Of a DNA stretch of 42,388 nucleotides, positions 596 to 25,394 are shown piece after piece (position 1 is the first letter of the stretch; the number at the start of each line of letters is the position of its first letter). The position numbers and the translations under genes are program-made. Under the pieces are notes generated by a model that was not told where the DNA came from, ran no database searches, and saw only the letters and a program-made list of their open reading frames with translations. The stretch is from Pseudomonadota bacterium (GTDB lineage Bacteria > Pseudomonadota > Alphaproteobacteria > Puniceispirillales > UBA1172): NCBI GenBank assembly GCA_027593125.1, contig JAQCJL010000005.1, positions 1 to 42,388 on the forward strand. The letters are read 5' to 3'.

Positions 596-1774
596 TTAAC
601 GAATGCCTTTGGCGTCGAGCACAGCAACAATTTCCTTTGCTGTTTTTTCACCAGAATTGATCAAAGCATTGCGAATAGCGGTCACATCATCAATGCCGCC
701 ATCATTAGCTTGAATAGGGCCAAATGCGGCGATATCACGTGGCAAACGTTTGCGGATATCAATGACAATCCCGTTAACTGAGGCAGAAACACGATAGCCT
801 TCGGATGTAGCATATTCGGGTAAGCCAATATCAATCGTGCCAATGGCAAGAAACTCTATCTCACAATCACGCGCGGCGTTGATCACGGATTTTCTGGTCT
901 CGCGGCTCATTTTGCCATTGAGGGCAATTTCTTCTTCAACCAGATCAGGCTCAACGCCTCCACATTCATTGACCACATCAACATACCGAACAGGTTCAAA
1001 ATTATTTAAAGTCAGCACACTAGATGTGCTGGTGCTGAAATCAGCTGAGGAAACGACAATATAACTGCGCTCACCTAATTCCCGTTCAGCGCCTTCTAAT
1101 ACGGTGGTTCCTGAAGATTTGTTTTGGGTCATGGTTTCGGTAACCGTGCTTTCCACGGTGGTGGTGCCATCACTGGAATAGGTGTTTTCCATGCTGTTTA
1201 GATTTTTGGATTGGCTACGCTGATCTACAGTAGGGTCATAGATTATGGTTGTGCCGTCCTTAATATAGCTGGTCTGGCGTGCTGAAAAAATCCACATCAT
1301 TAGGGCGCCTTCACCAACACTTGATCCAGCCTGATCAGCAAAGAGGGCATCAATCAATTTGGTTTTAACGCGAATGACAACTTTGCCATCAAGAACATTC
1401 TTTTCTGATTTGTTATTTTCATAATCAAATCCGACAACGCTGACATAATTTGTAATATCTGCCAGAATTTGATCTTTCTTGGCGAGATATTGCTTGAGCC
1501 TGCCATCATCCATGCAAAAACCAATATACTCTTCCCATGCGGCTTTGATGGCCATATCCTGAAGCGCTGCAACATCATCATCTTGGGGTTTGGATGACAA
1601 AAATTTAGGCGTGTATTCCATAGAAACTTCGGCAAAGGCCTCAGTTACGGAACCACAAGTGGCATCACTTCTTGCGGTTGAGGCAACCGAAAGCATAAAA
1701 AAGAACACAGCGGTTATCACAAGAAAACGCGATATAACGCTGGAAAGCGCATGGTGGAGAAAGAAATTTTTCAT
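596..1774 (-). CDS. Exported protein of unknown function, distantly FlgT/LPP20-like
   Basis: This 392-residue protein has an N-terminal signal peptide (hydrophobic core about residues 14-32, then STARSDA). A helical segment at about 55-100 leads to YVSVVGFDYENN and a KVVIRVKTKL strand, which resembles the layout of the neighbouring FlgT-like protein. A Ser/Thr/Asn-rich low-complexity stretch (about 185-230) separates it from a C-terminal part with alternating strands (VDVVNECGG, EIEFLAIGTIDIG, YRVSASVNGIVIDI). A predicted periplasmic location follows from the signal. It is first in a two-gene leftward unit that diverges from the gene at 1924. The start is supported by GTGAGATTAAC upstream of the ATG. 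I do not recognise a named family. Confidence 0.75.
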   Translation of the reverse strand: MKNFFLHHALSSVISRFLVITAVFFFMLSVASTARSDATCGSVTEAFAEVSMEYTPKFLSSKPQDDDVAALQDMAIKAAWEEYIGFCMDDGRLKQYLAKKDQILADITNYVSVVGFDYENNKSEKNVLDGKVVIRVKTKLIDALFADQAGSSVGEGALMMWIFSARQTSYIKDGTTIIYDPTVDQRSQSKNLNSMENTYSSDGTTTVESTVTETMTQNKSSGTTVLEGAERELGERSYIVVSSADFSTSTSSVLTLNNFEPVRYVDVVNECGGVEPDLVEEEIALNGKMSRETRKSVINAARDCEIEFLAIGTIDIGLPEYATSEGYRVSASVNGIVIDIRKRLPRDIAAFGPIQANDGGIDDVTAIRNALINSGEKTAKEIVAVLDAKGIR

Positions 1775-1852
1775 GTTAATCTCACTTACAGTTCACTTAA
1801 ATAAAGAGCTGGACAATTTTTATCCAAAGATTTGCATTAACTTATATAACAA

Positions 1853-1868
1853 ATTAGCTATTGCTAAT
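1853..1868. promoter_or_regulatory. Inverted repeat in the divergent intergenic region
   Basis: ATTAGC (1853-1858) and GCTAAT (1863-1868) form a 6-bp inverted repeat with a TATT spacer. It lies in the AT-rich 149-bp gap between the divergent genes at 1774 and 1924. This gap must hold promoters for both directions, but no -35/-10 pair is convincing enough to call. The repeat could be an operator half-site pair or chance in AT-rich DNA. Confidence 0.25.
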
Positions 1869-1909
1869 AGATTTCAATTGCAGCGTCACTTCAAGCAATG
1901 GAAAAATGA

Positions 1910-1922
1910 GATAAGGAATTGA
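1910..1922 (+). repeat. Leader repeat, copy 1
   Basis: GATAAGGAATTGA is identical at 1910-1922 and 2777-2789, each time just before the start codon of one of the two paralogous exported proteins. It contains the Shine-Dalgarno sequence. The shared leader supports origin of the pair by tandem duplication, or common translational control. Confidence 0.6.
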
Positions 1923-1923
1923 A

Positions 1924-2769
1924 ATGAAGACAATAATTATTACCATTTTTGGGATTATATTTTTTAGCCTTAATCATGCCAGCGCTCTTGATCGGGTAAT
2001 GATTGTTTCTGGTGATGCATCCGATGTTTCAGAAAGCTCGGTTGACGCTGATATTTTATTTCGCTTGGAGCATGAGTTTCGGGCGGCGCTTCTTGATCTT
2101 GGGATTAGCGTCACTAATCCTCTTTATATAGAGCAAGAACTTGGTGTGTCGCTGGATGGTGCGGACATAGATGACATTCTGCCCAAGTTGATCCCTTATC
2201 TGGCCAATAGTGATGACAGCATTATTCTGTTGGAATTAGGGCTTATCAGGGGCACAACGGCATTTGCAGATCCTTTTGTGCTGGCAACAGATGCCAAAAC
2301 GGGGCAAATCATGGCGCAAGCAACAACTCTCCCCTTATTGCAGACAGACAGCAATAATATTACCGCTGCCGCCGCGGCCTTGGCCAGAAGCCTTGAGCGA
2401 AGATTACAGCAGAACGGATATCAGACCAGCCTTGCGGATGTAAAACCATGGGGCGGCAAGGCCCATACCCTTCGTTTAGCTTTTGAAGGTTTCAACGGCT
2501 GTGAGCAGGAAACCATCCTTAATATTATAGAAAATGAGTTTCCGGGTTTTATTGGTGCTGATCTCGAAAAAGCCCCTAATCCGAATTATGCTATTTATCA
2601 ACTTCAGACAACGGCTCAAACCCAGCGCATCCGTAAATGGCTTCAGTTGGTGATGGTTGAGGCAGGAATGAGTCCTGATTATGATTATCGTCTGTTTGTC
2701 AGCCAAGAGAACTTAAGATTAAAAAAGCCAGATCACTTGCGCAGTTTTTATTTTCAGTGCGGCGAGTGA
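1924..2769 (+). CDS. Exported protein, first of two tandem paralogues
   Basis: The 281-residue product begins with a clear signal peptide (residues 1-21, ending NHASA before LDRV). The N-terminal domain has strand-helix character (ILFRLEHEFRAALLDLGISV, DSIILLELGLIRG). The C-terminal domain, from about residue 185, carries an EFPGFIG motif and a helix containing RKWLQLVMVEAG. The same C-terminal pattern recurs in the next gene (EFPGFIA, LNDWLRISLQEIG), so the two are paralogues. Architecture is reminiscent of periplasmic LpoB/CsgG-like accessory proteins, but that is only a guess. It opens the rightward operon that carries the ExbD-like protein, the transglycosylase and the Lon-like protein. 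The SD is AAGGA, six bases before the ATG. Confidence 0.75.
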   Translation: MKTIIITIFGIIFFSLNHASALDRVMIVSGDASDVSESSVDADILFRLEHEFRAALLDLGISVTNPLYIEQELGVSLDGADIDDILPKLIPYLANSDDSIILLELGLIRGTTAFADPFVLATDAKTGQIMAQATTLPLLQTDSNNITAAAAALARSLERRLQQNGYQTSLADVKPWGGKAHTLRLAFEGFNGCEQETILNIIENEFPGFIGADLEKAPNPNYAIYQLQTTAQTQRIRKWLQLVMVEAGMSPDYDYRLFVSQENLRLKKPDHLRSFYFQCGE

Positions 2770-2776
2770 GGGTTAG

Positions 2777-2789
2777 GATAAGGAATTGA
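2777..2789 (+). repeat. Leader repeat, copy 2
   Basis: This is the second exact copy of the 13-base GATAAGGAATTGA leader, here directly before the ATG at 2791. It fixes the first of two adjacent ATG codons as the likely start, because the SD-to-ATG distance is then the same as in copy 1. Confidence 0.6.
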
Positions 2790-2790
2790 T

Positions 2791-3687
2791 ATGATGTTAA
2801 AACAGCGTGTTTTTCTTTTTGCCTTTGTCATGCTCGGTGTGGCGATAATAACAACTGGTAGCGGTTTCATCCGTCAAGCCATGGCCGAACCTGTTTATCT
2901 TCTGCCTGGGTCACCTGCAGCCAGTACTAATGTTGGTCAGGTCGCAAGAGATGTTATGGCCTCACGCCTGAGTAAGGCCGGATTAATGGTCAGAGAAATC
3001 TCACCCGTCATGAAAGAACTTGGTTTTGCCCTTGATGGCAATAGGGCGGCTATATTGGCTGAAGCGGATGTTTTGCAAGCACGATTAGGCAGTGGGTTTT
3101 TCATCTTTGTGGAATATGATGAACTGATGGACCCTTCTACCAAGAGCCTATCTTTACGGCTTGCGGCACAGATTTACACAACCAGCAATGGCTTTGTTGC
3201 CAATTGGACAGAGCCAAGCCGCACCCTTTTGTTGCCAGAGAATTGCACACGCATTTGTCTTGATCGCCTTGTGTTGCCAGAAATTGAAGCGCAAGCAGAC
3301 AGTCTCTCTAGCAGTATTGTTCAGTTGCTGAAACGGCCAACGGGTTCATCAGATGGTGAGGCTGTGCCGGTTCAGATCTATCAAGTTGAGATGATAGATT
3401 TGGACAGTGATGAGATGTTAGAATTGGTGGACTTAATGGAACATGAATTTCCAGGGTTTATTGCCATTACTAATAGTGCGTCACGCTCGCCTCGATTGCG
3501 CTTTGACTATCATACCACGGCATCATCACAAAAGCTGAATGACTGGCTTCGGATCAGTCTTCAAGAAATTGGGATTGCCCCAGATAGTGATGCTGACCTT
3601 CAGGTGATGACAGGCTTTATTACGATCAAGCGTTATGACACCATCGAAAGCCGTGGTAGCCAAGGAAACACAGTCAAATTCAATTGA
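2791..3687 (+). CDS. Exported protein, second of two tandem paralogues
   Basis: The 298-residue product has a signal peptide (hydrophobic about residues 6-28, ending QAMA before EPVY). The N-terminal domain contains helical ARDVMASRLSKAGLMV, matched by the 'late' helix of the preceding protein, and a strand FFIFVEYDEL. The C-terminal domain (about 200-290) repeats the neighbour's layout: strand VQIYQVEMIDL, helix, EFPGFIA, strand RLRFDYHTT, helix LNDWLRISLQEIGI. Sequence identity between the two is low outside these motifs, so the duplication is old. Two cysteines (ENCTRICL) near residue 150 could form a disulfide in the periplasm. Role unknown; position implies work with the envelope machine encoded downstream. 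Confidence 0.75.
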   Translation: MMLKQRVFLFAFVMLGVAIITTGSGFIRQAMAEPVYLLPGSPAASTNVGQVARDVMASRLSKAGLMVREISPVMKELGFALDGNRAAILAEADVLQARLGSGFFIFVEYDELMDPSTKSLSLRLAAQIYTTSNGFVANWTEPSRTLLLPENCTRICLDRLVLPEIEAQADSLSSSIVQLLKRPTGSSDGEAVPVQIYQVEMIDLDSDEMLELVDLMEHEFPGFIAITNSASRSPRLRFDYHTTASSQKLNDWLRISLQEIGIAPDSDADLQVMTGFITIKRYDTIESRGSQGNTVKFN

Positions 3688-3692
3688 ATTTG
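3675..3692. repeat. Perfect 18-bp palindrome over a stop codon
   Basis: CAAATTCAATTGAATTTG reads identically on both strands and spans the stop codon (3685-3687) of the second paralogue. With no loop it would make a poor RNA hairpin, so a dimeric DNA-binding site is the more natural reading if it is functional. It lies 20 bp before the hairpin that precedes the ExbD-like gene. Confidence 0.4.
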
Positions 3693-3711
3693 CGACAAAA
3701 CTTGCGCTGAT

Positions 3712-3786
3712 TTTTCCATTTCTCCTCATGAAGCCTAAACCGCTTAAAGGGCTAGTTGCAAAGCTCATAATAGGAGAAATGGAAAA
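3712..3786 (+). promoter_or_regulatory. Long leader hairpin sequestering the SD and start of the ExbD-like gene
   Basis: TTTTCCATTTCTCCT (3712-3726) is the exact reverse complement of AGGAGAAATGGAAAA (3772-3786). The right arm contains the Shine-Dalgarno AGGAG and ends on the A of the ATG at 3786. The stem continues inward: ATGA (3728-3731) pairs with TCAT (3765-3768), then GC (3733-3734) with GC (3763-3764) around a bulged A. In the mRNA the entire leader would fold and hide the ribosome-binding site. No U-tract follows, so it is not a standard terminator. Possible roles are a translational switch, an RNA thermometer or an mRNA processing site. Confidence 0.6.
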
Positions 3787-4208
3787 TGCTTGCTGATGAT
3801 GCTAATCCCCTTGCCGAAGTGGCCTTTGCCCTATCAATGGCGTTTTTCAGCCTAATGGTGCTGATGCTGTTTGCTATTGTTCATCAACCTGAAGATACGG
3901 TGGCGGATAAAATGCTGATGACAGAAATGGCCCCATCCCAAGAGTCGCCAGCAGAACCCCAAGAACAACAAATCCTAATTTTTCATCCTAGCGGATTTTA
4001 TGATGCAGATTTGAAGCCTGTGAACCCTGCACAGCTTGATGCCTCAAAACCGGTTTTATTAGCGGTAGAAGAAACCATTCCTATGTCCAGCATCATGGGT
4101 TTTAAACGCGAATACGCTGGATTTGAAATTGAAATCGCTGAATTAACCGCGCAATGGAAACAGGCCATCACTAGCCAAAACAATTCTGTAAAGGGAGCCG
4201 GACAATGA
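3786..4208 (+). CDS. ExbD/TolR-like single-span membrane protein
   Basis: The 140-residue protein has a short cytoplasmic N-terminus, one membrane span (about residues 8-32, NPLAEV followed by a long hydrophobic run) and a periplasmic tail. The span begins like ExbD/TolR (NPLxDV-type), with Glu11 where the family has its proton-carrying Asp. The tail has a low-complexity Pro/Glu/Gln linker and then strands ILIFHPSGFY and PVLLAVEETIP, comparable in size to the ExbD periplasmic domain. A partner ExbB-like protein is encoded at 10553-11116 on the other strand. Its start lies in the leader hairpin, and its stop overlaps the transglycosylase start (ATGA). The ExbD assignment is inferred from topology and the span motif, not from strong identity. 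Confidence 0.55.
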   Translation: MLADDANPLAEVAFALSMAFFSLMVLMLFAIVHQPEDTVADKMLMTEMAPSQESPAEPQEQQILIFHPSGFYDADLKPVNPAQLDASKPVLLAVEETIPMSSIMGFKREYAGFEIEIAELTAQWKQAITSQNNSVKGAGQ

Positions 4209-4999
4209 CCTTTTTTTCATATCTTAACCATAACGCTAAAGGGCTGATGGTTTGGTTCATGCTGGTGGCTACTTTTGCTAGCGTATCTTCATCCGCGGCC
4301 GCTTTATCCTCAACCCAGACAACCCATCATATTCAAAAGGTGATTGTGATTGAGGCGTTAAAATCACGCCATGTGTCTCCGTCTCTTGCGCTTGCAGTAG
4401 CTGAGGTTGAATCCAGTTTTCGCCCCCAAGTTGTCAGCCATAAAGGGGCGATTGGTGTCATGCAAATCATGCCTGCCACCTCGCGTGATGTGTTTGGCGT
4501 TAACCCTAATCGTCTTTATCAGCCAGATTTAAATATCCGATTGGGAATACGGTTTCTCGATGATTTGATTTCGCAATATGATGGCCGGGTGGATATTGCT
4601 TTATCTCATTATAATGGGGGATCGCGTGTTAACCGCACTAGCCCGCCAAGCATTATCCCTGCGACACGTGGTTATGTGCTTAAAGTCCTAAATCGGGCTC
4701 AGCATTATCAGACCATCTGGCCGGGCATGGTTAATCCTGATCATCGGGTTTTTCCTGTGGTTATTCCGGCACACGAGCCATCACCAAGTTTTATCAATAT
4801 TCAGCCTGAACGCATGGTACAGGCAACATTTGACTGGCAAAATCATGTCACAGAAATTGACTATTGGCTGACCAATAAAGGCCAGCAATCCATGACGATT
4901 TCATCTTATTCCACGCAAAGATCTTATAGCCAAAAATTAGTGACGCGAATGCATCAGAACCGCAGTCATCTTCGCCAGTGGATTAATCGGAACCCTTAG
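4205..4999 (+). CDS. Exported lytic transglycosylase (SLT/Slt70 family)
   Basis: The enzyme cleaves the glycan strands of peptidoglycan to form 1,6-anhydromuramyl ends. Of 264 residues, 15-34 form a signal peptide or anchor, and about 45-170 form the SLT domain. Visible motifs are the catalytic ES pair (VESSF, Glu69), GVMQIMP (84-90), the NIRLGIRFL helix, and HYNGG (135-139) in place of the usual AYNAG. The last about 90 residues have no clear domain and end basic. The start overlaps the ExbD-like stop by four bases, so the two are translationally coupled. This suggests that the transglycosylase opens murein for, or is driven by, the ExbB/ExbD-like complex. Confidence 0.88.
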   Translation: MTFFSYLNHNAKGLMVWFMLVATFASVSSSAAALSSTQTTHHIQKVIVIEALKSRHVSPSLALAVAEVESSFRPQVVSHKGAIGVMQIMPATSRDVFGVNPNRLYQPDLNIRLGIRFLDDLISQYDGRVDIALSHYNGGSRVNRTSPPSIIPATRGYVLKVLNRAQHYQTIWPGMVNPDHRVFPVVIPAHEPSPSFINIQPERMVQATFDWQNHVTEIDYWLTNKGQQSMTISSYSTQRSYSQKLVTRMHQNRSHLRQWINRNP

Positions 5000-5002
5000 A
5001 CG

Positions 5003-6877
5003 ATGTTATCTTATCATCAGCACATTGAAACCCTTGCTTTGCCTTTAGTCATGCGATCGGATGCTGGTCGCACAAATGAGGATAGGGCGTTGTGGTCAAC
5101 AAGGGTGGCACGCCCCCGCAACTATGCTACATTAGTAGGGTATGAGTGTAGTGACGCGTTTGGTTATGGTCTGTCAATGAATGATCCCGGCGAAATTTTA
5201 TCTTCATGGGCGGAATTCCGTCTTTCACCCCCATCGGAGTTTTTACTAACCTGTCTTCGTTATATTCATGATTACACCGACAGCCATGGGCAGGCGATAT
5301 TTTCACCTCGGACAGCCACAGGGCTGACAACCATGATCGCCTCACGGTCTTATGGCCCAGAGCTTTATCGGATGTGTGCGATGATTGCTGGCGCTTCAGC
5401 TTCAGGCATAAAACCAGGGGAGCTGTTAGTTGCTGGGCGAGCAACGCCATCGCGGATCAGGCAGATATTTTCTGATGCGGATCGTCCCCATGCTCTATTG
5501 ATCGAAGATGATCAGTTGGTTTTTGCAAACCACCAGCCAATTTGGCGACAAGCGTTTTCCCGTGCGCCATTATCGGTAGCCTTGGCTAGTTTTCTGGCTG
5601 AAGCCTTGGGGTTTGATGTTTTTCTTGATGCTTATCATAAGCTAGGCCAGGATATAGAGGCGTCATCTATTAAGACAATCGCCAATGATCTGTCAAAGCG
5701 GCTATATCGGTTTCTGGCAGAGCATTTGCCGCGAAGCTCAGAACGACAAATCACCCTGCTGTTGCAACAGTATCTTGAGCAATCTTTGTCACCAGATGCT
5801 AAATTATCAGAAAGCAATATTACCGATGAGATCATTTTTGATTTCTGGTGTGAAAAAAGTTTGGATAAAGAGGTCAGCCTAAAACTGTATGACACTTGCT
5901 TGCGGGCTTGGGTGACTTTTCGATGCGGCGTTGTGATAGCAAGTCAGTCCAGATTTTCTTCTGCGGATAGTTTGACTGATGATGAGCATCGCCTAGATCA
6001 TCTTACCATTGATCATTTTTATGGTGAAAACGATGATGTCAGCTTTCTTGAGGCAGGACCAAAAGCTTTCCAAAGCAGCATGGTATTATCTGGCGATAAA
6101 TCATCGGGGCTAAAGGCGGGTTTTGACGGCCTTGCTGTGCCGCCAGCAGATAGCATCAAAATGTTCAGCAATACCGAACGTGATAAAATTGAATTGCTGG
6201 CCCATGCTAATGATCAGGCTATACCGCTTAAGCAATCAATGCTTCGCGGCATGGTGTTTCCGCTTATGCAAAACCGCCTCACGCAAGCCACAAGGGTGAG
6301 TAAAAAACAACCAGATATTAACACAGTCATGGCAGAGGCAGGGCCTAATCCTTATCAGAACTGTGTTGAGGCGTGGGCAGATATTCAGACGGTTGCGCTA
6401 GGGACCGCGCGCACCGCATGTCAGCGCCTGATCGAAGAACAGCAACTGGCAGGTCTTGCCCTATTAACCAGTATGCTTGATGATGAAGAAAAGCATGAGC
6501 TGATCAGTCTGATGCATGAGGCAGGGGTCACATCAGATCAATCCGCGCTGTTAGCGGAAAACCTTTTTGATAAACTGGAAAACCGCCCTGCCCAAAGTGC
6601 ACTCAATACGATCTTGTCAGAGCTAAAATCTGGCGCAAGGAAATATCGACGCGCTGGACTAAAAGAGGCTCCTGCTGATAGTGATGACCACTCCGCATGG
6701 CATGATGGACTATATCTTGCCGCTGGTTATGCTCAGATGATTGCCAATGATCTAGATATATTCTTGAAAGAAATGGAATCGACGGGCGACACACTCGAAA
6801 CTCTTTATCTAAAAGACCAGATGATCTTTAAGCAACAATTCAACCGTATTTATAAAAGTGAGCATGGCGATGGATAA
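5003..6877 (+). CDS. Large cytoplasmic protein of unknown function
   Basis: The 624-residue product has no signal peptide or membrane span. It looks mostly helical, with an N-terminal segment (1-220) of mixed character, then polar helices. I see no Walker, helicase, protease or nuclease motif. The C-terminal third (about 440-620) is rich in Leu/Glu/Lys/Gln helices, suggesting a scaffold. The start follows the transglycosylase stop by three bases with only a weak SD, pointing to translational coupling. The end overlaps the next gene. Position between the periplasmic genes and the Lon-like membrane protein suggests a cytoplasmic component of the same machine. I do not recognise the family. Confidence 0.75.
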   Translation: MLSYHQHIETLALPLVMRSDAGRTNEDRALWSTRVARPRNYATLVGYECSDAFGYGLSMNDPGEILSSWAEFRLSPPSEFLLTCLRYIHDYTDSHGQAIFSPRTATGLTTMIASRSYGPELYRMCAMIAGASASGIKPGELLVAGRATPSRIRQIFSDADRPHALLIEDDQLVFANHQPIWRQAFSRAPLSVALASFLAEALGFDVFLDAYHKLGQDIEASSIKTIANDLSKRLYRFLAEHLPRSSERQITLLLQQYLEQSLSPDAKLSESNITDEIIFDFWCEKSLDKEVSLKLYDTCLRAWVTFRCGVVIASQSRFSSADSLTDDEHRLDHLTIDHFYGENDDVSFLEAGPKAFQSSMVLSGDKSSGLKAGFDGLAVPPADSIKMFSNTERDKIELLAHANDQAIPLKQSMLRGMVFPLMQNRLTQATRVSKKQPDINTVMAEAGPNPYQNCVEAWADIQTVALGTARTACQRLIEEQQLAGLALLTSMLDDEEKHELISLMHEAGVTSDQSALLAENLFDKLENRPAQSALNTILSELKSGARKYRRAGLKEAPADSDDHSAWHDGLYLAAGYAQMIANDLDIFLKEMESTGDTLETLYLKDQMIFKQQFNRIYKSEHGDG

Positions 6878-7409
6878 ACACAGCAAGGCCATTCTGTCTG
6901 ATGCAGGAAAATTATTTGATAAACTCACCGATGCCCATCTGATGCAAAAACATCTTAATGATGATCCCAAACATGCTGACGGATTAGATTTGCATAGCTT
7001 GTGGCAGGCGGCCGAAGGTAAGGCCAGTGATGCACAGATGCAAAAAATATCGCAAAGCTTCATGGCCAGAAAACAGCTCAAGGCTATTTTGGATGCCTCT
7101 GCCATTGCTTATCAACCCCGTCAGGCGGCAGCATCTAGCACTAGTGATTATCGGCATGGCAGTGCTTTTGATATCCGGATAAAGCCATCCGCCGCTCAGG
7201 ATGGGCTTGTCTATGTTCAGTTACTTTTTCATCAAAAGATGATGCCTGAGCATGAACAACCAAGCGTTTTGGTATCTTACCGAGATGGAATTTATCGTCA
7301 GAAACCATTGACGTCAATTCAGGATCAGCGCATACAGCTTTTGTGGCATAGTGATGATCCCATGTTGAAGGATTTAAGGGATCCAGAGACGGAACTTTAT
7401 ATCAAGTGA
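6864..7409 (+). CDS. Small cytoplasmic protein, anti-sigma-like N-terminus, unknown function
   Basis: The 181-residue protein has no signal or membrane span. Its helical N-terminal part (about 1-75; LHSLWQAAEG, then an FMARKQLKAIL helix) is spaced like the N-terminal helices of anti-sigma factors but lacks the zinc-binding Cys and His, so this is only a resemblance. The C-terminal half (about 90-181) alternates strands (FDIRI, LVYVQLLFH, SVLVSYRDG, QRIQLLWHS), suggesting a beta-sandwich. Start choice is uncertain: GTG 6858, ATG 6864 and ATG 6870 are in frame. All overlap the previous gene, so translation is probably coupled. The stop overlaps the next start (GTGA). Confidence 0.65.
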   Translation: MAMDKHSKAILSDAGKLFDKLTDAHLMQKHLNDDPKHADGLDLHSLWQAAEGKASDAQMQKISQSFMARKQLKAILDASAIAYQPRQAAASSTSDYRHGSAFDIRIKPSAAQDGLVYVQLLFHQKMMPEHEQPSVLVSYRDGIYRQKPLTSIQDQRIQLLWHSDDPMLKDLRDPETELYIK

Positions 7410-8725
7410 CCAGAGTCTATATACCGACGACGCGACATCCGGTTGAGATTATCTCCCTGATTGAGGAAGGCGCGGATATTGAATCGGTGATCTGCCTTGC
7501 GGGCAGTTTTGAAGGTCTTCCGGTTAGTTCAGCTTATAATGCCTTTGTTCGTCGCCCCACAGGACTGATTGAAAAACTCACAGGGGTGGCATCGTTCCGT
7601 ACTGATGTGAGTGGCACCATCGATCAGGGTAACAGTTGGCAATTGCCAATGCTATTGGCGCATCGGTTGCATCACAAAAAGCGGTTTCGTCAATCTGACG
7701 CAAAACACATGATTTGGGCCACAGGACAAGTTGATATTAATCAAAATGTCACCCCTGTTCAGCATATTCGTGAAAAGCTGGCTGCAAGCCAGACGCTTTT
7801 TGATGATCTGATGGGTAAGGGCATTACTGTTCATCTGGTGATGCATCCAGACAATATGGTGGAATGCGAAGACCTTAAATCCAAAGGGTTTATCTGTCAT
7901 GCTGTTCGCGGAGTGATAGAAATTGATCGCTTACTGATAGATGCCGCCTTTGCTGCGCCTTCTGATCCGGTTGTCCATAAATCAGCTTTGAGCCCATGGC
8001 AAAAAGTATTGCGGCAAGGTGTATCTTGGTGCTGGCGCAGGCGCCAGATCATAGGTTATGGCCTAATAGCCTTGATGGTTTTTGGCCTTTATCAGCAGAC
8101 GCCTTGGAAGCCCATCCATGAAGCAATGATGCTAGAAAAACAAGGCCGTCTTGTTGAGCTGATCCGCGTCTTAAAAACCTATCGTCAAAATCCTGATGTC
8201 ATGTCGCGTATCAGCTTTCGTCTGTTTGAGGAAATGGCCTTGAAGCGTAAATCTGACCGCCTCATCCGTAATTTAGAAGTTCATCTTGTCTGGGCTGTTC
8301 CAGGTGATGGGCTTGGTAGTTGCGACGATAGTGACATGCGCTGGCATAAACATTTGGTGGATGGCGAAACTTTGCCGTCATTGCCAAGTAACCTTTGCCG
8401 GCTTTATCTGGATATCCGGAATATTGGCTCAACTCGTCAAGCGGTTGCGGTTGCTGTGCGCCAGAACCCAGATGAAAATCATGGAGAAAATGTGCTGTTG
8501 ATGCAACCTACGCAGTCAGCGCTTGCCCCAACAGAAAATATGCGCAGCATGCCTATAGCCGCTTCATCACAGCCTATGGTCATTATGCTGGCGACATCAG
8601 ATCACATGGATAATGCTTGGTACCCATGGTTTGAACGTTGGGTTAACCGGCCAACGATCAGTTTTAGTCAACGGTTGCACGACACCGGCATTGGCGCACG
8701 CATGGCATCACAGGATATGCCATGA
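7406..8725 (+). CDS. Membrane-anchored protein with Lon-peptidase-like domain
   Basis: Residues about 25-185 of this 439-residue product resemble the S16 (Lon) proteolytic domain without an AAA+ module. DQGNSWQLPMLLAHRL has Ser77 where Lon has its nucleophile in GPSAG followed by a small-residue helix. WATGQVD plus NVTPVQHIREKLAAS matches Lon's TGEIxLxGxVLPVGGIKEKLLAA, placing Lys124 at the catalytic lysine. VHLVMHPDN matches Lon's VIxPxxN. The Ser-Lys distance (47) is close to that in Lon (43). A basic stretch and one span (about 213-232) follow, then a mostly periplasmic 200 residues with a strand-rich part (CRLYLDIRNIG, QPMVIMLATSD) resembling the DUF4384-like domain after some bacterial proteases. 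Start is GTG, overlapping the previous stop. Activity is unproven; the flanks of Ser77 differ from Lon. Confidence 0.6.
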   Translation: MTRVYIPTTRHPVEIISLIEEGADIESVICLAGSFEGLPVSSAYNAFVRRPTGLIEKLTGVASFRTDVSGTIDQGNSWQLPMLLAHRLHHKKRFRQSDAKHMIWATGQVDINQNVTPVQHIREKLAASQTLFDDLMGKGITVHLVMHPDNMVECEDLKSKGFICHAVRGVIEIDRLLIDAAFAAPSDPVVHKSALSPWQKVLRQGVSWCWRRRQIIGYGLIALMVFGLYQQTPWKPIHEAMMLEKQGRLVELIRVLKTYRQNPDVMSRISFRLFEEMALKRKSDRLIRNLEVHLVWAVPGDGLGSCDDSDMRWHKHLVDGETLPSLPSNLCRLYLDIRNIGSTRQAVAVAVRQNPDENHGENVLLMQPTQSALAPTENMRSMPIAASSQPMVIMLATSDHMDNAWYPWFERWVNRPTISFSQRLHDTGIGARMASQDMP

Positions 8726-8744
8726 TGATGGGGTATCCATGGTC

Positions 8745-9890
8745 TTAAATGCAACGCGCATCACCAAGGGCAATACGCCCGGATACGCGTCGGCCTTTTA
8801 CTTGGATATCGTCAATAAAAAGCTGACCTTGGCTAATGGTATAAGACCCTGATACGCGGCCGTTGAGCTGATCTGACCTAGCTGCGTTAAGCAATCCCCC
8901 AATGATATAGCTATCGCCAGATTTGCTGAAAAGCTGAACAGGTGTTCCATCGCCAAGTTGGGCTTTAAGGTTGGCCTGATGGGTGGTTTCTTTAGCATCA
9001 ATATTTTGCCGTGACCGCAAATAAGGAGAATAGAAATTACGGTTAGCAACCTTTACTTTGCCATCGCGAATATCATAGAGTTTTCCATTATTAAGCAAAT
9101 ATCCACTTGTCAGACCAAAGCATTGACGCAGAATGACAGCAACTTTTTCACGGTCGGATTTATTGTCTGGCCAGAACAGCTCAAGTTCAAGTTTTTCATC
9201 TGCTTCATCCATCTGTTTCATCGCGTGTTGCCGGTCTTGCCCAGAAGCTGTCATGGTCACAGGCACTTGGTTTATGGTTAAGGCGCTATCAATGCTTGCA
9301 GATATGTTTGGCAATGGCGTGATAGGGATATTTGCCGCCGCCGTTGTGACCACAGGCTTTGGTAATGGCTCCAGCACAGGCTTTATAGGCGCAAATTGAG
9401 ATGCCTTATCTTTTTCAGGAAACGCCGCGAGGTTAGGTTCAGCCTTTAGTTCAAGCATAAGGGGTTTAGGCAATAGCCTAGCTGGGGGAGAGGTGATTTC
9501 AGCTGTTTCCGTCGGGTTCATTGGCACGATCACGGAAGGGGCCGCGGATGGTTGAACTTGTGATCGTTGAAGCAGGGGTCCCGGCAAAAGGTTTTCGGGC
9601 TTTTCCAGATGGATTTCTTGCTGGTCTTTTGGCGCATCAGTTTCGTTGATGGCTTCTGCTGAGGGAGGAAGATATTCAGAAGGCAAAGTAACGAAACGGA
9701 TGCTGGCCAAAACTTCATTAGCTGATGCTTGATCCTGAGCATCGACAGGGGGCACCAGCGTGTCTTCTGCAGGCGCATGGGTTTGCTCAGGCTTCGCGGT
9801 GTTTGGGGGCGTGTCTGGCAAAACCTGTTGGGGTTCAAGCCAGACCATCGCAAAAAACCCAAGCACCAGAATTACTGAAGCGAGGCGCAT
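8745..9890 (-). CDS. TonB/TolA-shaped proline-rich membrane-anchored protein
   Basis: The 381-residue protein has one N-terminal span (about 3-19) and then a Pro/Ala/Glu-rich linker to about residue 215 with repeated LPKP and PLP motifs. A globular C-terminal domain of about 160 residues follows (LELELFWPDN, VILRQCFGLTSGYLLNNGKLY, strands at the end). This is the layout of TonB and TolA, which reach through the periplasm while anchored by ExbB/ExbD or TolQ/TolR. The C-terminal domain itself is not recognisably TonB_C. It is last in the leftward operon, two bases after the coiled-coil protein and two genes after the ExbB-like protein. The role as energy transducer is inferred from shape and context. 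Confidence 0.65.
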   Translation of the reverse strand: MRLASVILVLGFFAMVWLEPQQVLPDTPPNTAKPEQTHAPAEDTLVPPVDAQDQASANEVLASIRFVTLPSEYLPPSAEAINETDAPKDQQEIHLEKPENLLPGPLLQRSQVQPSAAPSVIVPMNPTETAEITSPPARLLPKPLMLELKAEPNLAAFPEKDKASQFAPIKPVLEPLPKPVVTTAAANIPITPLPNISASIDSALTINQVPVTMTASGQDRQHAMKQMDEADEKLELELFWPDNKSDREKVAVILRQCFGLTSGYLLNNGKLYDIRDGKVKVANRNFYSPYLRSRQNIDAKETTHQANLKAQLGDGTPVQLFSKSGDSYIIGGLLNAARSDQLNGRVSGSYTISQGQLFIDDIQVKGRRVSGRIALGDARCI

Positions 9891-9892
9891 GA

Positions 9893-10549
9893 TTAGATAC
9901 CTGATTTCTCAAGATAGAATACTTGCATATCCAACATCAATTTACCAAGGTCTTGCTGGCGTTCTGCAGGGGTCATATACCGCATTCGCTCATTTACATT
10001 TGCGGTATCAAGGCCTGGGGCAACCATGTTTTCCTGATCAGCTTCTGCTAATTCAGCAAACGCATTAGCAATATCGATATCACTCACAGGGGGGTCTGAT
10101 TGTTCCACTAATATAACAGGCTCAACTTTTGAGGTGTTGGTTTCAGCATGAGGGACACTTGCCGGACTGACATTGCTATTTGGCAAAGGGGCAATCATAT
10201 CTTTGGCCTCAACTGTGGTTACGTTTGCCGCGGGTGTTTGCATGTCTTCCAAAAGCGCATTCAGGCTTGAAACCTCAGCTTTAAGCGACAGAATATCCTC
10301 GCGCAATTGCTCTGTCTCTGATGGTGTTGCCATCACATCGGCTGTGATCTCGGCCATCAGTTCAGATGCTGTTTCGGCTAACCCGTGATGATCGATGTTG
10401 TCTTTGCCTTCTTGCATCACTTGGTCAACCCCTGCGACAACTGTTTTTGATGTGCCCGTTAACCATGAGGAAAAGGATTGATCTGGTGAGGCTGTGAACA
10501 AATAGCCCAGACAAGCGAGAACACAAATATTGAACATAAGGAAACGCAT
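9893..10549 (-). CDS. Membrane-anchored coiled-coil protein, unknown function
   Basis: The 218-residue product has an N-terminal hydrophobic segment (about 3-20) that may be a signal peptide or anchor. A coiled-coil heptad stretch runs at about 77-104 (ETEQLREDILSLKAEVSSLN). A Pro/Asn/Ser-rich linker follows, and an acidic helical tail with the C-terminal motif MRYMTPAERQQDLGKLML. It lies three bases after the ExbB-like gene and two before the Pro-rich gene, so all three are one transcription unit. Predicted location is inner membrane with the bulk in the periplasm. Probably a structural partner of the channel; family not recognised. Confidence 0.65.
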   Translation of the reverse strand: MRFLMFNICVLACLGYLFTASPDQSFSSWLTGTSKTVVAGVDQVMQEGKDNIDHHGLAETASELMAEITADVMATPSETEQLREDILSLKAEVSSLNALLEDMQTPAANVTTVEAKDMIAPLPNSNVSPASVPHAETNTSKVEPVILVEQSDPPVSDIDIANAFAELAEADQENMVAPGLDTANVNERMRYMTPAERQQDLGKLMLDMQVFYLEKSGI

Positions 10550-10552
10550 GAA

Positions 10553-11116
10553 TTATTCTCCTACAACAAGAGGGTTAGCGTGATGGGCAGGACGATCACT
10601 GCTCATTACCGTGGCATTAATAAGGATCAGGATGGTGCGAAGCACAGCAGATACCGGCAGGCCAACCACCGAAGTCATAAAGGCCATACTGAAATGTTGT
10701 GTCAGGTCAGCAATAACATCATTGATCGTGTCAGGTGTTAACCCCCCATGGGAAAGTGAACCAATACCAAGAGAGATGCCCAGCAAAGTAAAGGTAAGGG
10801 CAATGGTGGCAATGCCGTTACAGGCTTGCAGCCCACTCAATAACCATTTCCGGCGAAAGCCATCAATAGCTTCAGATGGGTTCTCCCCTCGGGTTTCCAG
10901 CAATTTCATGCCGCTAAAGATGCTGACCAGAATAAGGATCATGGTTAAAGACATAAAGCCCAAACCAAGCACATCCATAATCCAGTTAAAAATGGCACTT
11001 GCCGGGAGACTGCTGGCAAAGGAAAACCCTGCCAGCAGGATGACTATGGCGCCCATCACAAAGGTAAAGGCGCGTCCACCTAATCCGATATTGTTATGCC
11101 AGATAGACCAGCTCAT
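10553..11116 (-). CDS. ExbB/TolQ/MotA-like proton-channel protein
   Basis: The 187-residue protein has four predicted spans (about 14-36, 45-68, 99-120, 142-168). The last two match the MotA/TolQ/ExbB domain: NGIATIALTFTLLGISLGIG, then a loop and FSMAFMTSVVGLPVSAVLR, equivalent to the ALxTTxxGLxVAIPA segment. Thr148 aligns with the second conserved Thr of ExbB/TolQ. The first Thr (GT in LGLLGTV) seems to be replaced, as the sequence reads LGISLGIG. The large cytoplasmic loop of ExbB is short here (about 70-95). The start overlaps the previous gene (ATGA). With the ExbD-like protein at 3786 it would form a proton-driven motor. It is not MotA, being too short and lacking the MotA loop. Confidence 0.7.
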   Translation of the reverse strand: MSWSIWHNNIGLGGRAFTFVMGAIVILLAGFSFASSLPASAIFNWIMDVLGLGFMSLTMILILVSIFSGMKLLETRGENPSEAIDGFRRKWLLSGLQACNGIATIALTFTLLGISLGIGSLSHGGLTPDTINDVIADLTQHFSMAFMTSVVGLPVSAVLRTILILINATVMSSDRPAHHANPLVVGE

Positions 11117-11496
11117 CTGCCTACCCTCGACACCAGAAGATCACTAGTAGATAGGCCAACGGTTTCTGCCCAATGCTGTGTGATTTTCTGTTTCTTTTCT
11201 GCTGAAGCATGGCTCAGAAACGTTAATTCATAGCTATTAAACGCACGCAGGGCCGCGGCAGGTGAGTTAGATTTCAGCGATTTATCATTAATGACAATCT
11301 TTTCCAGATCGGTCAGCCGACGCCAAGACGCCATCATGTATTCAGACCGCTGTGCAACAGAAATATCTGCGTTCAGCATCTTAGAGATAGCAATGGCGCG
11401 TTCGCGTTCCAAATTTTCAAGCGAATCTGCTTTAGCCTGGGCAAACACCCCAGTAAGGCAAATCACAGCAGCAGAGAGAGCAAATAAACGTTTCAT
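11113..11496 (-). CDS. Small exported protein, unknown function
   Basis: The ATG at 11496 is chosen over an upstream ATG at 11514 because AAAGGA lies eight bases before it and it begins a clean signal peptide (about 1-23, ending AQAKA before DSLE). The mature protein is about 104 residues, helical, with EKIVINDKSLKSNSPAAALRAFNSYELTFLS in its middle (first part cited as two motifs: EKIVINDKSL and ALRAFNSYELTF). It sits directly before the ExbB-like gene with a 4-base overlap, so it is probably a periplasmic partner made together with it. No family recognised. Confidence 0.65.
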   Translation of the reverse strand: MKRLFALSAAVICLTGVFAQAKADSLENLERERAIAISKMLNADISVAQRSEYMMASWRRLTDLEKIVINDKSLKSNSPAAALRAFNSYELTFLSHASAEKKQKITQHWAETVGLSTSDLLVSRVGR

Positions 11497-11522
11497 GGGA
11501 ATATCCTTTCGCATAGGGTTGC

Positions 11523-12395
11523 TTAGCGATTAATAAAAATTTGCAGGTTATTAGCAGGTGAGTTGTAAACAGCAGGCGTATATCCATCGGCGCCATACTG
11601 ATATTCTGCCAGATCAAGAGAAAAGGCCTTGGCATCAAGTGCCACCAATTTAGCCATATAGCCTAACACCTCTTCTTCCATATCAAGGACAGCCAATTGC
11701 GATTGGATATCATGAATGGTCAGCCGCAATTCTTCTTCGCGACTCATAGGTTCACCGTCAATGGAACTAGAGTTTTGCTGAGATGGGTGGGTGTTGATGG
11801 CTTCAACCAATTGGCTGATTGCGGCCTGATTATCAGCATAAGCTTTGGCAAAATCAGATTCAGGCATCATGGTGTTGGTGAATAAATCTTCGCGCAAACT
11901 GCTATCAACACTATTTGCCCGATTGATAACCGCATTTCGTGCAGCATCAAAACTTGCGCTTTGGCTACTTTCTGCTGCCCCTTGGCGCGCTTTCCGCATG
12001 AGGCGTTCATAAATCTCAAGCTTCACCGCCAAACGCTTTTTCTTGAGGTCAATTTGGGTGCCCATCATTTCGATATAATCGCGTTTCCCAGCGATCAGCT
12101 GATGCCGAGCTTCTAGCCTTTGTTCCCCTTCATAGAGATCAAGATCATTCTGAACCTGTGATAAGAAATTGATCTGGCTGGAAATATCTGTTTCCAGACC
12201 GCCCAACTCTGATGCCAGAGGTGAACGATCAAAATCCTGTTCGATTGCGGTTTCTAGGTGCTCGGATGGCAACATTAGGATTTTCTCGCTAATGCTTGGG
12301 CTCCACCCTGTTTGGCTAGCCATGGCAGGTAAGCTTGTCAGGGCAGTTGCAGCCAGAAGCGCGGCGGAGAAAGTGTTACGGATCGTTTTTTTCAT
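11523..12395 (-). CDS. Exported coiled-coil protein, unknown function
   Basis: The ATG at 12395 is preferred to an in-frame one at 12446, since GAAAGGAAAT precedes it and it starts a typical signal peptide (1-26, ending LPAMA before SQTG). The 290-residue product has two predicted coiled-coil stretches: about 55-140 (rich in Gln, Leu, Asp, Lys; QINFLSQVQNDLDLYEGEQ) and about 195-260 (REEELRLTIHDIQSQLAVLD). Such periplasmic coiled coils are seen in YbgF/CpoB-like and EnvC-like proteins, but no defining domain of either is visible. It is second in the leftward operon and likely interacts with the channel complex or murein. Confidence 0.65.
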   Translation of the reverse strand: MKKTIRNTFSAALLAATALTSLPAMASQTGWSPSISEKILMLPSEHLETAIEQDFDRSPLASELGGLETDISSQINFLSQVQNDLDLYEGEQRLEARHQLIAGKRDYIEMMGTQIDLKKKRLAVKLEIYERLMRKARQGAAESSQSASFDAARNAVINRANSVDSSLREDLFTNTMMPESDFAKAYADNQAAISQLVEAINTHPSQQNSSSIDGEPMSREEELRLTIHDIQSQLAVLDMEEEVLGYMAKLVALDAKAFSLDLAEYQYGADGYTPAVYNSPANNLQIFINR

Positions 12396-12424
12396 GGTGC
12401 TATTTCCTTTCCAGACGCATTGGC

Positions 12425-12982
12425 CTAGTTGTTTTCCCAGTACCAAACGCGGCGTACTTCATCCTTAACCGAGGGTTTGGCATTCATGGATGCGAGGTTA
12501 AGTAAGGATTTTTTGTCGCTATGGGTGTAGGAAAACAGCACATCATAAGTATCCGTGAATGAAGTGCCATCGGCATAAATTAGGTCTTTGCCTTGGAACG
12601 TCGTCCTAAACTTTTCCAAATTCATTTTGGCTTTGGTAACATCACCGCCAATAAAATAATTCTGGATGCTAAGCGCATAAACTTTCATCCGTTGGTCTTC
12701 AGGAACGAGATGGGTGCCATCAATGACATGGTACTCACATCCTTCAAGAATTTCCGCACTCGACAGAAACTGCGCTGGATCACCATTATCCCTTGCCATG
12801 CTGTCACGGGAAATGCCTTCCTCAACACAGCTTTCAAAATCATTTATGGTCTGCAGATCACTAAGCCGCATTTGGTGAAATCCCACCACATCTGCTGTTT
12901 TGTTGCTGCCAAGCGTGGCAGGGTTACAAGCAGAAAGGGCGGCCACAGCACAAATGGCTGGCAAAATCATAAGGGTTCTCAT
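12425..12982 (-). CDS. Lipoprotein, unknown function
   Basis: The product has a lipobox LSAC with the acylated Cys at residue 19, after a hydrophobic signal. Asp does not follow Cys (it is CNPAT), so outer-membrane sorting is likely under the +2 rule as known from enterobacteria. The mature part, about 165 residues, contains a Cys pair (FESCVEEG, LEGCEYHV) and ends VWYWENN. Of two adjacent ATG codons, the second (12982) is the better distance from GAGGAAG. It is the first gene of the leftward operon, transcribed from the gap shared with the PotD-like gene. It could be the outer-membrane end of the trans-envelope assembly, by analogy with Pal in Tol-Pal, although no Pal/OmpA domain is seen. 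Confidence 0.7.
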   Translation of the reverse strand: MRTLMILPAICAVAALSACNPATLGSNKTADVVGFHQMRLSDLQTINDFESCVEEGISRDSMARDNGDPAQFLSSAEILEGCEYHVIDGTHLVPEDQRMKVYALSIQNYFIGGDVTKAKMNLEKFRTTFQGKDLIYADGTSFTDTYDVLFSYTHSDKKSLLNLASMNAKPSVKDEVRRVWYWENN

Positions 12983-12995
12983 CATTCTTCCTCAC

Positions 12996-13014
12996 AAACA
13001 GTTGGTTACTGTTT
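12996..13014 (-). promoter_or_regulatory. Small hairpin in the lipoprotein leader
   Basis: AAACAGT (12996-13002) and ACTGTTT (13008-13014) form a 7-bp inverted repeat with a five-base loop, just before the lipoprotein start. It lies in the divergent gap between the envelope operon and the PotD-like gene. It could be an operator or an mRNA leader hairpin; no U-tract is present. Confidence 0.35.
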
Positions 13015-13125
13015 AGGCAATGGAAGGATCAGATGAATTTTTGAAAACAGCTATGGCTAAATAGAGTGCACAAATAAAATATCTTGAGAAATACTCTATA
13101 CAAAACCCTAACTTACGGATTAACA

Positions 13126-24024: not shown

Positions 24025-24861
24025 TTATGAATGGGTTGCGACTTTATTGATAAACCGAATTAAGACAGCATTAAAAGTATCAGGGTCTTCGAGCATAGCC
24101 ATATGACGAAGCCCTTTGAGGATATGAAGTTCTGATGCTGGTATTTCTTTGGCGATGGCTGCACTCATATCGGGATTATTACCAAAATCCTCATCACCTG
24201 TCATGACCAAGGCTGGACAATTGATTGGCAACTCTGGTGCAATCAATTCTTTTACCCCGTCAACCAGCACTTGATAAATCTGGGGATAGATGTTGCGGTC
24301 ATTAGCTTTAACCCATTGCCGGACGTCATCCATAATGTCTGGGCGGCTCGCGCGGAAAGCATCACTGAACCAACGGATCAGCGCATCTTCTACCGTGGCA
24401 TCAGGGCCATTAGCCTTGGCCTGATAAACACGCTGTTGGATTTTATCATGCGCGGCTTGGTCGCGGTCATGCGGCGAATGGAGAATGGCGATAGCCTGTG
24501 CCATATCAGGATAATCCATGGCGAAACGCCTGACGATCATGCCGCCAAGTGAAAAGCCCATGATAATCGCCTGCGAGAGGTTGAGATGTTGCATTAGGGT
24601 TTTTAGCTGACGTGAGAACAGCGTTAACGAGGGGATCTCTGGTGGCGGTGAAGATCTGCCATGACCATAAAGGTCATAACTCAACACCTGATAAGATGGG
24701 GTTTTAGTGCCCTTGAACGTTTTTACCAATGCCTCAGTTTGTTCTCGCCACATGTCATGATTTAACCCAAGCCCATGAATAAGAATCAGAGCTTTGCCCT
24801 CAGTGTCATCATCTGTTTTATAGAGACGATAAAATGTTCCATCTGGTGTCAATGTGGTCAT
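24025..24861 (-). CDS. Alpha/beta hydrolase (RutD/NicD-like by context)
   Basis: This 278-residue enzyme has the alpha/beta-hydrolase features: oxyanion-hole HG (LILIHGLGLNHDMW), the DLYGHGRS loop, nucleophile Ser104 in GFSLGG, acid in MTGDEDFGN and catalytic His in GLRHMAM. It is cytoplasmic. The start overlaps the RidA stop (ATGA). Pairing of a RidA-type and an alpha/beta hydrolase recalls RutC-RutD of pyrimidine breakdown, and the hydrolase might equally be a deformylase like NicD. No RutA or RutB is in the window, so the pathway is not the Rut pathway as known. Esters, amides or thioesters are possible substrates. Confidence 0.85.
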   Translation of the reverse strand: MTTLTPDGTFYRLYKTDDDTEGKALILIHGLGLNHDMWREQTEALVKTFKGTKTPSYQVLSYDLYGHGRSSPPPEIPSLTLFSRQLKTLMQHLNLSQAIIMGFSLGGMIVRRFAMDYPDMAQAIAILHSPHDRDQAAHDKIQQRVYQAKANGPDATVEDALIRWFSDAFRASRPDIMDDVRQWVKANDRNIYPQIYQVLVDGVKELIAPELPINCPALVMTGDEDFGNNPDMSAAIAKEIPASELHILKGLRHMAMLEDPDTFNAVLIRFINKVATHS

Positions 24862-25247
24862 GCTGGTAAGGGGCGATAGGCCACTACCTCTACTTCGACC
24901 CGAACATCTACCAACAATTCGCTGATGACCGCAGAACGGGCTGGAGGGTCAGTCGGGAAATATTCGGCATAAACCTCATTAAAGCCGGGAAAATCAGCTC
25001 GATCACGAAGCCATACCATAGCTTTGACAACATCCGAAACCTCACATTCTGCCATGGCAAGGGTGGCTTTAATCTCATCGAGAACAACCCGGGTCTGCGC
25101 GTAAATATCGCCTTCTGTCATCACGGCTCCGTTTTGCATGGGGATTTGCCCTGTTAAGAAAACAAAATCTCCTGCCCGAATAGCACGCGACAGGGAAAGC
25201 CGCCGTCCGTTAATTTCTAGCGGATCACCGATAACCTGTTTTGCCAT
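24858..25247 (-). CDS. RidA family protein (YjgF/RutC-like)
   Basis: The ATG at 25247 begins MAKQVIGDP and follows an AGGGGG SD. An earlier ATG at 25268 lies inside the leader. The 129 residues carry VFLTGQIPM, and the conserved Arg in PARSAVISEL corresponds to the substrate-binding Arg105 of RidA. The usual EIEAIA end is VEVEVVAYR. RidA proteins hydrolyse reactive enamines and imines to ketones and ammonia, so the operon probably handles an enamine formed from the imported compound. It is first in a three-gene leftward operon and divergent from the aldehyde dehydrogenase. Confidence 0.87.
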   Translation of the reverse strand: MAKQVIGDPLEINGRRLSLSRAIRAGDFVFLTGQIPMQNGAVMTEGDIYAQTRVVLDEIKATLAMAECEVSDVVKAMVWLRDRADFPGFNEVYAEYFPTDPPARSAVISELLVDVRVEVEVVAYRPLPA

Positions 25248-25394
25248 GTTTTTATCCCCCCTGATCATACCTGTTTTAATGGCTTATCTATGCCATCGTC
25301 ACTGGATGAAGTCTTATCCATTATCATTATTTCGCCAAAACATGGCAAAATAATTAATCTTGGTGGGGACAGCTCATTTACCATAAAATGCTAA

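Follow-up and report, generated by a model that had tools for sequence, protein, structure and literature searches.

The start of g3 (3786–4208, + strand), a gene coding for a protein with one TM helix and an ExbD/TolR-like periplasmic domain, is enclosed by a long hairpin in the window analysed here, i.e., the whole stretch of 42,388 nucleotides from a bacterium of the SAR116 group (Puniceispirillales). The right arm of this hairpin holds the SD sequence of g3, and its left arm overlaps the −10-like part of a conserved promoter-like motif. We consider it probable that the hairpin acts as a lock against the translation of read-through RNA, of which the codirectional upstream gene g2 (2791–3687, + strand) would be a possible source, whereas RNA from the promoter of g3 itself would be open.

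The SD-closing helix and its covariation

A first-pass annotation of this DNA had described a perfect 15-bp inverted repeat at this position, and a repeat search likewise finds the arms, at 3712–3726 (TTTTCCATTTCTCCT) and 3772–3786 (AGGAGAAATGGAAAA, + strand), to be complementary at 15 of 15 positions across 45 intervening nucleotides. The right arm covers, as had been stated, both the SD AGGAG (3772–3776) and the A of the g3 ATG (3786), with the spacer between them. The annotation had also proposed folding the RNA from 3690 to 3830, and the MFE structure of this segment (−37.7 kcal/mol; shuffles −30.1 ± 3.4, z −2.2) contains both arms. The same structure holds the 6-pair extension that had been reported, its left side at 3728–3734 and its right side at 3763–3768, in which 3728–3731 pairs with 3765–3768 (AUGA/UCAU) and 3733–3734 with 3763–3764 (GC/GC); a small internal loop separates it from the 15-bp helix. 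Perfect inverted repeats of at least 15 pairs with a loop of 3–60 nt number one in the window against 0 in 40 dinucleotide-resampled windows, in which even those of at least 14 pairs with a loop of up to 60 nt were absent; the earlier judgement that the repeat goes beyond chance is thus upheld. The loop, however, does not quite fill the intergenic space as had been thought: the stop of g2 (3687) is followed by 24 nt before the left arm begins, and this stretch holds half of the promoter-like motif. Elsewhere in the window, an imperfect 23-nt inverted repeat (83%; 25230–25252 and 25337–25359) surrounds the beginning of a RidA-like gene (24858–25268, − strand).

Several other accounts of the hairpin could be set aside. 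An intrinsic terminator is disfavoured, the helix being without a U-tract: none follows 3786, in agreement with the annotation, and a terminator scan made no call at the hairpin. Translational coupling to g2 was rejected, its stop lying 24 nt before the left arm and hence beyond the reach of a terminating ribosome, whose footprint we reason to be about 15 nt. The hairpin had also been suggested to be the remnant of an inserted element, which does not agree with its sequence occurring only once in the 2-Mb genome and with homologues having a different helix at the same place. The same annotation had offered an RNA thermometer. As in the FourU and ROSE thermometers, a helix of the leader takes up the SD, and here it adjoins the start codon, but with its 15 perfect pairs this helix has a predicted stability far too high for such a device: in silico, the probability that the SD is open, P(SD open), in the full leader of the window only goes from 0.17 to 0.19 between 4 and 75 °C. 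Nor did any covariance model of Rfam 15 reach its gathering score in the window, which also disfavours a curated RNA family such as a riboswitch or a leader. We regard a thermometer as very improbable.

The 5′ region of g3 was compared in 39 distinct loci, from which one representative was taken for each of 28 lineages, comprising SAR116 and other Rhodospirillales, as the set for covariation. The SD-closing helix is kept in most of these lineages with differing letters, its arm pairs including CTCCT/AGGAG, CCTCTCA/TGAGAGG, TCCAT/ATGGA and CCTTTCAT/ATGAGGGG, among others. In silico duplexes were computed between the 24 nt around the CAT of the promoter-like motif, i.e., its −10 region, and the SD region; as a null, the arms were permuted between lineages, which preserves the character of both motif and SD. 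The −10 region pairs with its own SD at a mean of −12.8 kcal/mol versus −8.7 ± 0.5 kcal/mol for the swapped pairs (z −8.0, p 5e-5); leaving out the window, or restricting the set to SAR116 or to the distant genomes, gives a p of 5e-5 again. In the controls, the 24 nt at CAT −60 to −36 with the own SD gave z −0.5, the −35 region with the own SD z −2.1, and the −10 region with an intragenic SD-like site z −1.5. These figures bear directly on whether the complementarity is a chance matter of a pyrimidine-rich −10 region meeting a purine-rich SD. The composition does lean towards pairing, as the average of the swapped pairs attests; nevertheless, own pairs beat swapped ones while the control pairings do not or barely do, and the 15 perfect pairs of the window have no equal among the 40 shuffles, leaving this reading with scarcely any credibility.

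The sequence comparison thus indicates that the helix is under selection and that its arms change together between lineages. The covariation in homologous leaders that the annotation had proposed looking for is therefore present: the helix is kept across lineages through compensating letters, which lends good support to the annotation's suggestion of translational control by SD hiding. In eight loci (L047, L050, L053, L057, L061, L064, L073 and L074), the SD pairs with the promoter region little or not at all. When divided by upstream neighbour, with L065 assigned by eye, pairing occurs in 25 of 32 loci with a codirectional neighbour versus 2 of 5 with a divergent one, which is a tendency only (Fisher p 0.11). 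In relatives of the same genus (L037–L040), an outer helix formed by the leader (GGCATCAT) with codons 4–6 of g3 (ATGATGCC) encloses the SD hairpin.

The promoter-like motif and the expected RNA start

The motif of g3 (3691–3724, + strand), delineated by conservation and matrix scan, consists of an A-tract (AAAA, 3697–3700) followed by CCTTTCATAG, with the pyrimidine-rich CATTTC at 3717–3722 and its CAT at 3717–3719; the left, anti-SD arm of the hairpin sits on it. Its general form across loci is an A-tract, a fixed interval of 19–21 nt and a pyrimidine-rich CAT, roughly AAAAnnnnnCCTgATCCTTTCATAG, with a T-tract sometimes taking the place of the A-tract in some distant loci. It is present upstream of the g3 homologues in 39 of 39 loci (selection score 10.6 versus 6.9 for shuffles), the conservation of the CAT being in part by construction because the rule for choosing sites included it, and it is conserved even where the arm lies elsewhere. 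The spacing within the motif is constant, and the distance from CAT to start codon is 21–72 nt among the loci. Cross-training of PWMs between SAR116 and the distant genomes returned the same position in 16 of 23 and 8 of 16 loci, which we do not count as independent evidence because one common rule chose the sites. In three loci (L049, L062 and L063), a terminator-like hairpin lies directly before the g3 motif, with its T-run replacing the A-tract; it is possibly a second barrier against read-through.

A weight matrix built from the g3 sites was used to scan both strands of the whole window. Its top match, on which it had not been trained, is at 13022 (− strand), 37 nt ahead of h1, with which the convergent h operon begins, in a segment (12985–13048, − strand) that also has an SD-hiding fold, with a P(SD open) of 0.05 at full length versus 0.53 when truncated. 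The g3 site itself (3717) ranks next, followed by another untrained site, with its CAT at 1900 (1893–1926, − strand; score 21.6), upstream of the divergent gene 596–1774. A weaker copy with its CAT at 1835 (1809–1842, + strand), at the head of g1 and without an SD hairpin, scores 14.0, barely over the next background match at 13.4. Among the relatives, untrained sites are found before h1 (L076–L079 and L070), before g1 (L037, L042, L044 and L045) and ahead of the genes that open further operons of the cluster (L061, L063 and L139–L145); in nearly all cases where h1 is internal to a longer operon, no motif is present or none that is significant. Genome-wide relaxed patterns occur near control level in this genus, with just the cluster sites standing out, and this search of its genomes found no wider regulon of the motif. 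The recurrence of the motif at the operon heads of the cluster and hardly elsewhere therefore argues that it marks the transcript heads of one cluster.

The two copies between the divergent genes (window 1809–1926; CAT 1835 on the + and 1900 on the − strand) face each other, so that the two leaders would overlap head-on. In L143, the motif is likewise on both strands of the equivalent gap (15691, +; 15669, −), and in L140 a strong match (698–721, score 25.2), with a near-palindromic partner on the opposite strand, lies outside the cluster region.

In the f4 relatives, just 24–28 nt separate the CAT from the ATG, leaving no room for an intervening promoter; hence, the motif would lie at the promoter itself or have the promoter upstream of it. 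It matches no known sigma consensus and is slightly dyad-like (A-tract/T-rich). A scan with the sigma-70 consensus found no site at 3690–3730, and the sigma-28 and heat-shock consensus sequences differ from the motif in spacing or letters. A dedicated ECF sigma factor was rejected as a candidate: the genome has just three sigma70-type factors, by its Sigma70_r2 matches, which makes a dedicated sigma unlikely. From its conservation, position and spacing we infer that the motif is the core promoter of g3. One might instead see in it an operator bound by a repressor or activator specific to the cluster, with the SD complementarity serving the same or another end, and this would accord with its restriction to the cluster, its slight dyad and the small set of sigma factors. 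However, the two-block spacing is like that of a promoter, and no promoter would fit downstream of such an operator within the short interval seen in the f4 relatives. We deem the operator improbable.

A −10 hexamer beginning at CAT puts the canonical transcription start at CAT+12, i.e., at 3729 in the window. By base-pair probabilities, the partners of the SD are at CAT −12 to +12, with peaks at −4 to +1 and +6 to +9, and are essentially absent from CAT+14 to +23, where the shuffled null is flat at 0.04–0.08. The SD pairs with CAT −8 to +11 at 0.58 versus 0.17 in the null, and its partners are depleted between the promoter region and the SD (0.07 versus 0.18, p 0.001). The left arm of the window ends at CAT+9, and the partner profile across loci at CAT+12. 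Canonical spacing and the end of the SD partners together point to a start region at CAT+11 to +13 (3728–3730, + strand), and transcription of g3 is predicted to begin at about 3729. RNA begun there lacks the left arm and therefore could not form the hairpin. With the RNA starting at CAT+12, the predicted mean P(SD open) across loci rises from 0.22 to 0.53; in the window, shortening to the predicted start raises it from 0.17 to 0.57, and the shortened RNA folds no better than shuffles. At 4–25 °C the shortened RNA is in silico only partly open (0.20–0.38), so that the contrast between full and short RNA is weaker at sea temperatures. The first-pass annotation had held a start inside the loop to speak against a role for the hairpin; the predicted start does fall there, and the hairpin would keep a role, as a lock on read-through RNA.

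The position of the arms also bears on a different account, in which the hairpin would be part of all g3 RNAs and be opened by a protein, a small RNA or a ligand, the motif being an RNA element and the promoter lying further upstream. The conservation of the SD-hiding helix would suit such a switch, and the constant distance from A-tract to CAT could equally reflect an RNA-binding site. Against this, the SD partners end sharply at CAT+12, Rfam provides no match, and the exchange of A-tract for T-tract in some distant loci fits double-stranded DNA better than RNA. Moreover, the heads of g1 have the motif without an SD helix; therefore, motif and hairpin are separable, and the complementarity is no by-product. 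We find a switch acting on all g3 RNAs unlikely, and return below to the lock on read-through RNA.

The 14-gene cluster

The g3 protein has no match in Pfam or NCBIfam. Its AlphaFold2 model (pLDDT 74) has an N-terminal helix (8–32) and a small alpha/beta domain, for which the five best VIA entries in a fold search are all ExbD or TolR (Z 5.3–5.9; next unrelated 4.6), making ‘ExbD-like’ a fair name. The gene belongs to a conserved cluster of 14 genes (596–12985), made up of 596–1774 (− strand), g1–g7 (1924–8725, + strand) and h6–h1 (8745–12985, − strand). The whole cluster is syntenic in 6 of the 7 SAR116 relatives compared, in two blocks in L144, and g3 with its downstream genes extends to other Rhodospirillales. 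Within the cluster, g4 codes for an SLT-family lytic transglycosylase. The h operon, which is convergent and runs from 12985 to 8745, opens with a lipoprotein-like gene and includes a helical membrane protein, h4 (10553–11116). The model of h4 has TolQ, ExbB and ZorA as its first matches, among other helix bundles and at Foldseek E-values of at least 0.06, for which reason we claim only a likeness to these proteins. A 14-gene cluster with an SLT transglycosylase along with ExbD/TolR-like and TolQ/ExbB/ZorA-like proteins is, as such, undescribed. Most genes in 596–12985 are without a match in Pfam, NCBIfam or PHROGs. By eye, the N-terminal half of g7 (7406–8725) resembles the Lon proteolytic domain (GQVDINQNVTPVQHIREKL) and is followed by a TM helix.

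A proposed lock on read-through RNA and its phage precedents

In the mechanism that we propose, the −10 region of the g3 promoter (3712–3724) would double as the complement of the SD. Polymerase arriving from g1–g2 would copy both arms, and its RNA would fold, closing the SD and the start codon. RNA from the g3 promoter (about 3729) would be without the left arm and leave the SD free, so that g3 and the genes behind it could be translated. Synthesis of the g3 product would then depend on firing of the cluster's own promoter. We infer that read-through from g1–g2 occurs and that translation differs between the two RNAs. A possible reason for such a lock would be to avoid making a leak-prone motor subunit without its partners. 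On balance, we lean towards the fuller picture of a vertically inherited, non-phage cluster with a dual-coded, cluster-specific promoter, its −10 element being the anti-SD, that keeps a TolQR/ExbBD-like gene locked, with covariation across alphaproteobacterial families.

The closest parallels come from phages. In gene e (lysozyme) of T4, late promoters lie inside the 5′ arm of an RBS hairpin, a measured 100-fold reduction of translation has been reported, and the arrangement is predicted in related phages (PMC3014915). As there, the helix of SD and AUG would be formed solely by the longer RNA started upstream; in contrast to the T4 late promoter (TATAAATA), which works in a phage, the present case concerns a cellular cluster with another type of promoter and is drawn from sequence. 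Hairpin-locked RBSs are also known for I-TevI, I-TevII, I-TevIII and segB of T4 and mobE of phage Aeh1 (PMC2988022), and late promoters in the 5′ strand of RBS hairpins for e, soc, I-TevI and segB of T4 and mobE of Aeh1 (PMC2988022; PMC3014915). With I-TevI and its like and mobE, g3 shares a place behind codirectional genes, a stable RBS hairpin and an own promoter that is here predicted to be so placed that its RNA lacks the 5′ arm; however, those are mobile endonuclease genes of phages, whereas g3 is ExbD/TolR-like and belongs to a chromosomal cluster with conserved synteny. The g3 locus has neither a transposase nor terminal repeats, unlike the IS10/IS50-type elements. In the transposase genes of the latter, incoming RNA folds and hides the RBS, and RNA from the own promoter does not. 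The literature searched yielded no chromosomal case of a promoter-nested RBS lock, which does not by itself prove that none exists.

Phage T4 supplies the textbook cases of promoter-nested RBS locks, by which its late genes are kept silent on early RNA. A conserved cellular case, if true, would mean that chromosomal operons, too, label RNA according to where it began and restrict translation to that from the right promoter. It would also furnish a search rule applicable to any genome, namely, an anti-SD overlapping a −10 box. More specifically, our observations point to an envelope cluster with ExbB/ExbD-like parts, the first stator-type gene of which would be kept under tight control. The putative lock sits before the gene for this motor protein across many marine alphaproteobacteria, its pairing kept while its letters change.
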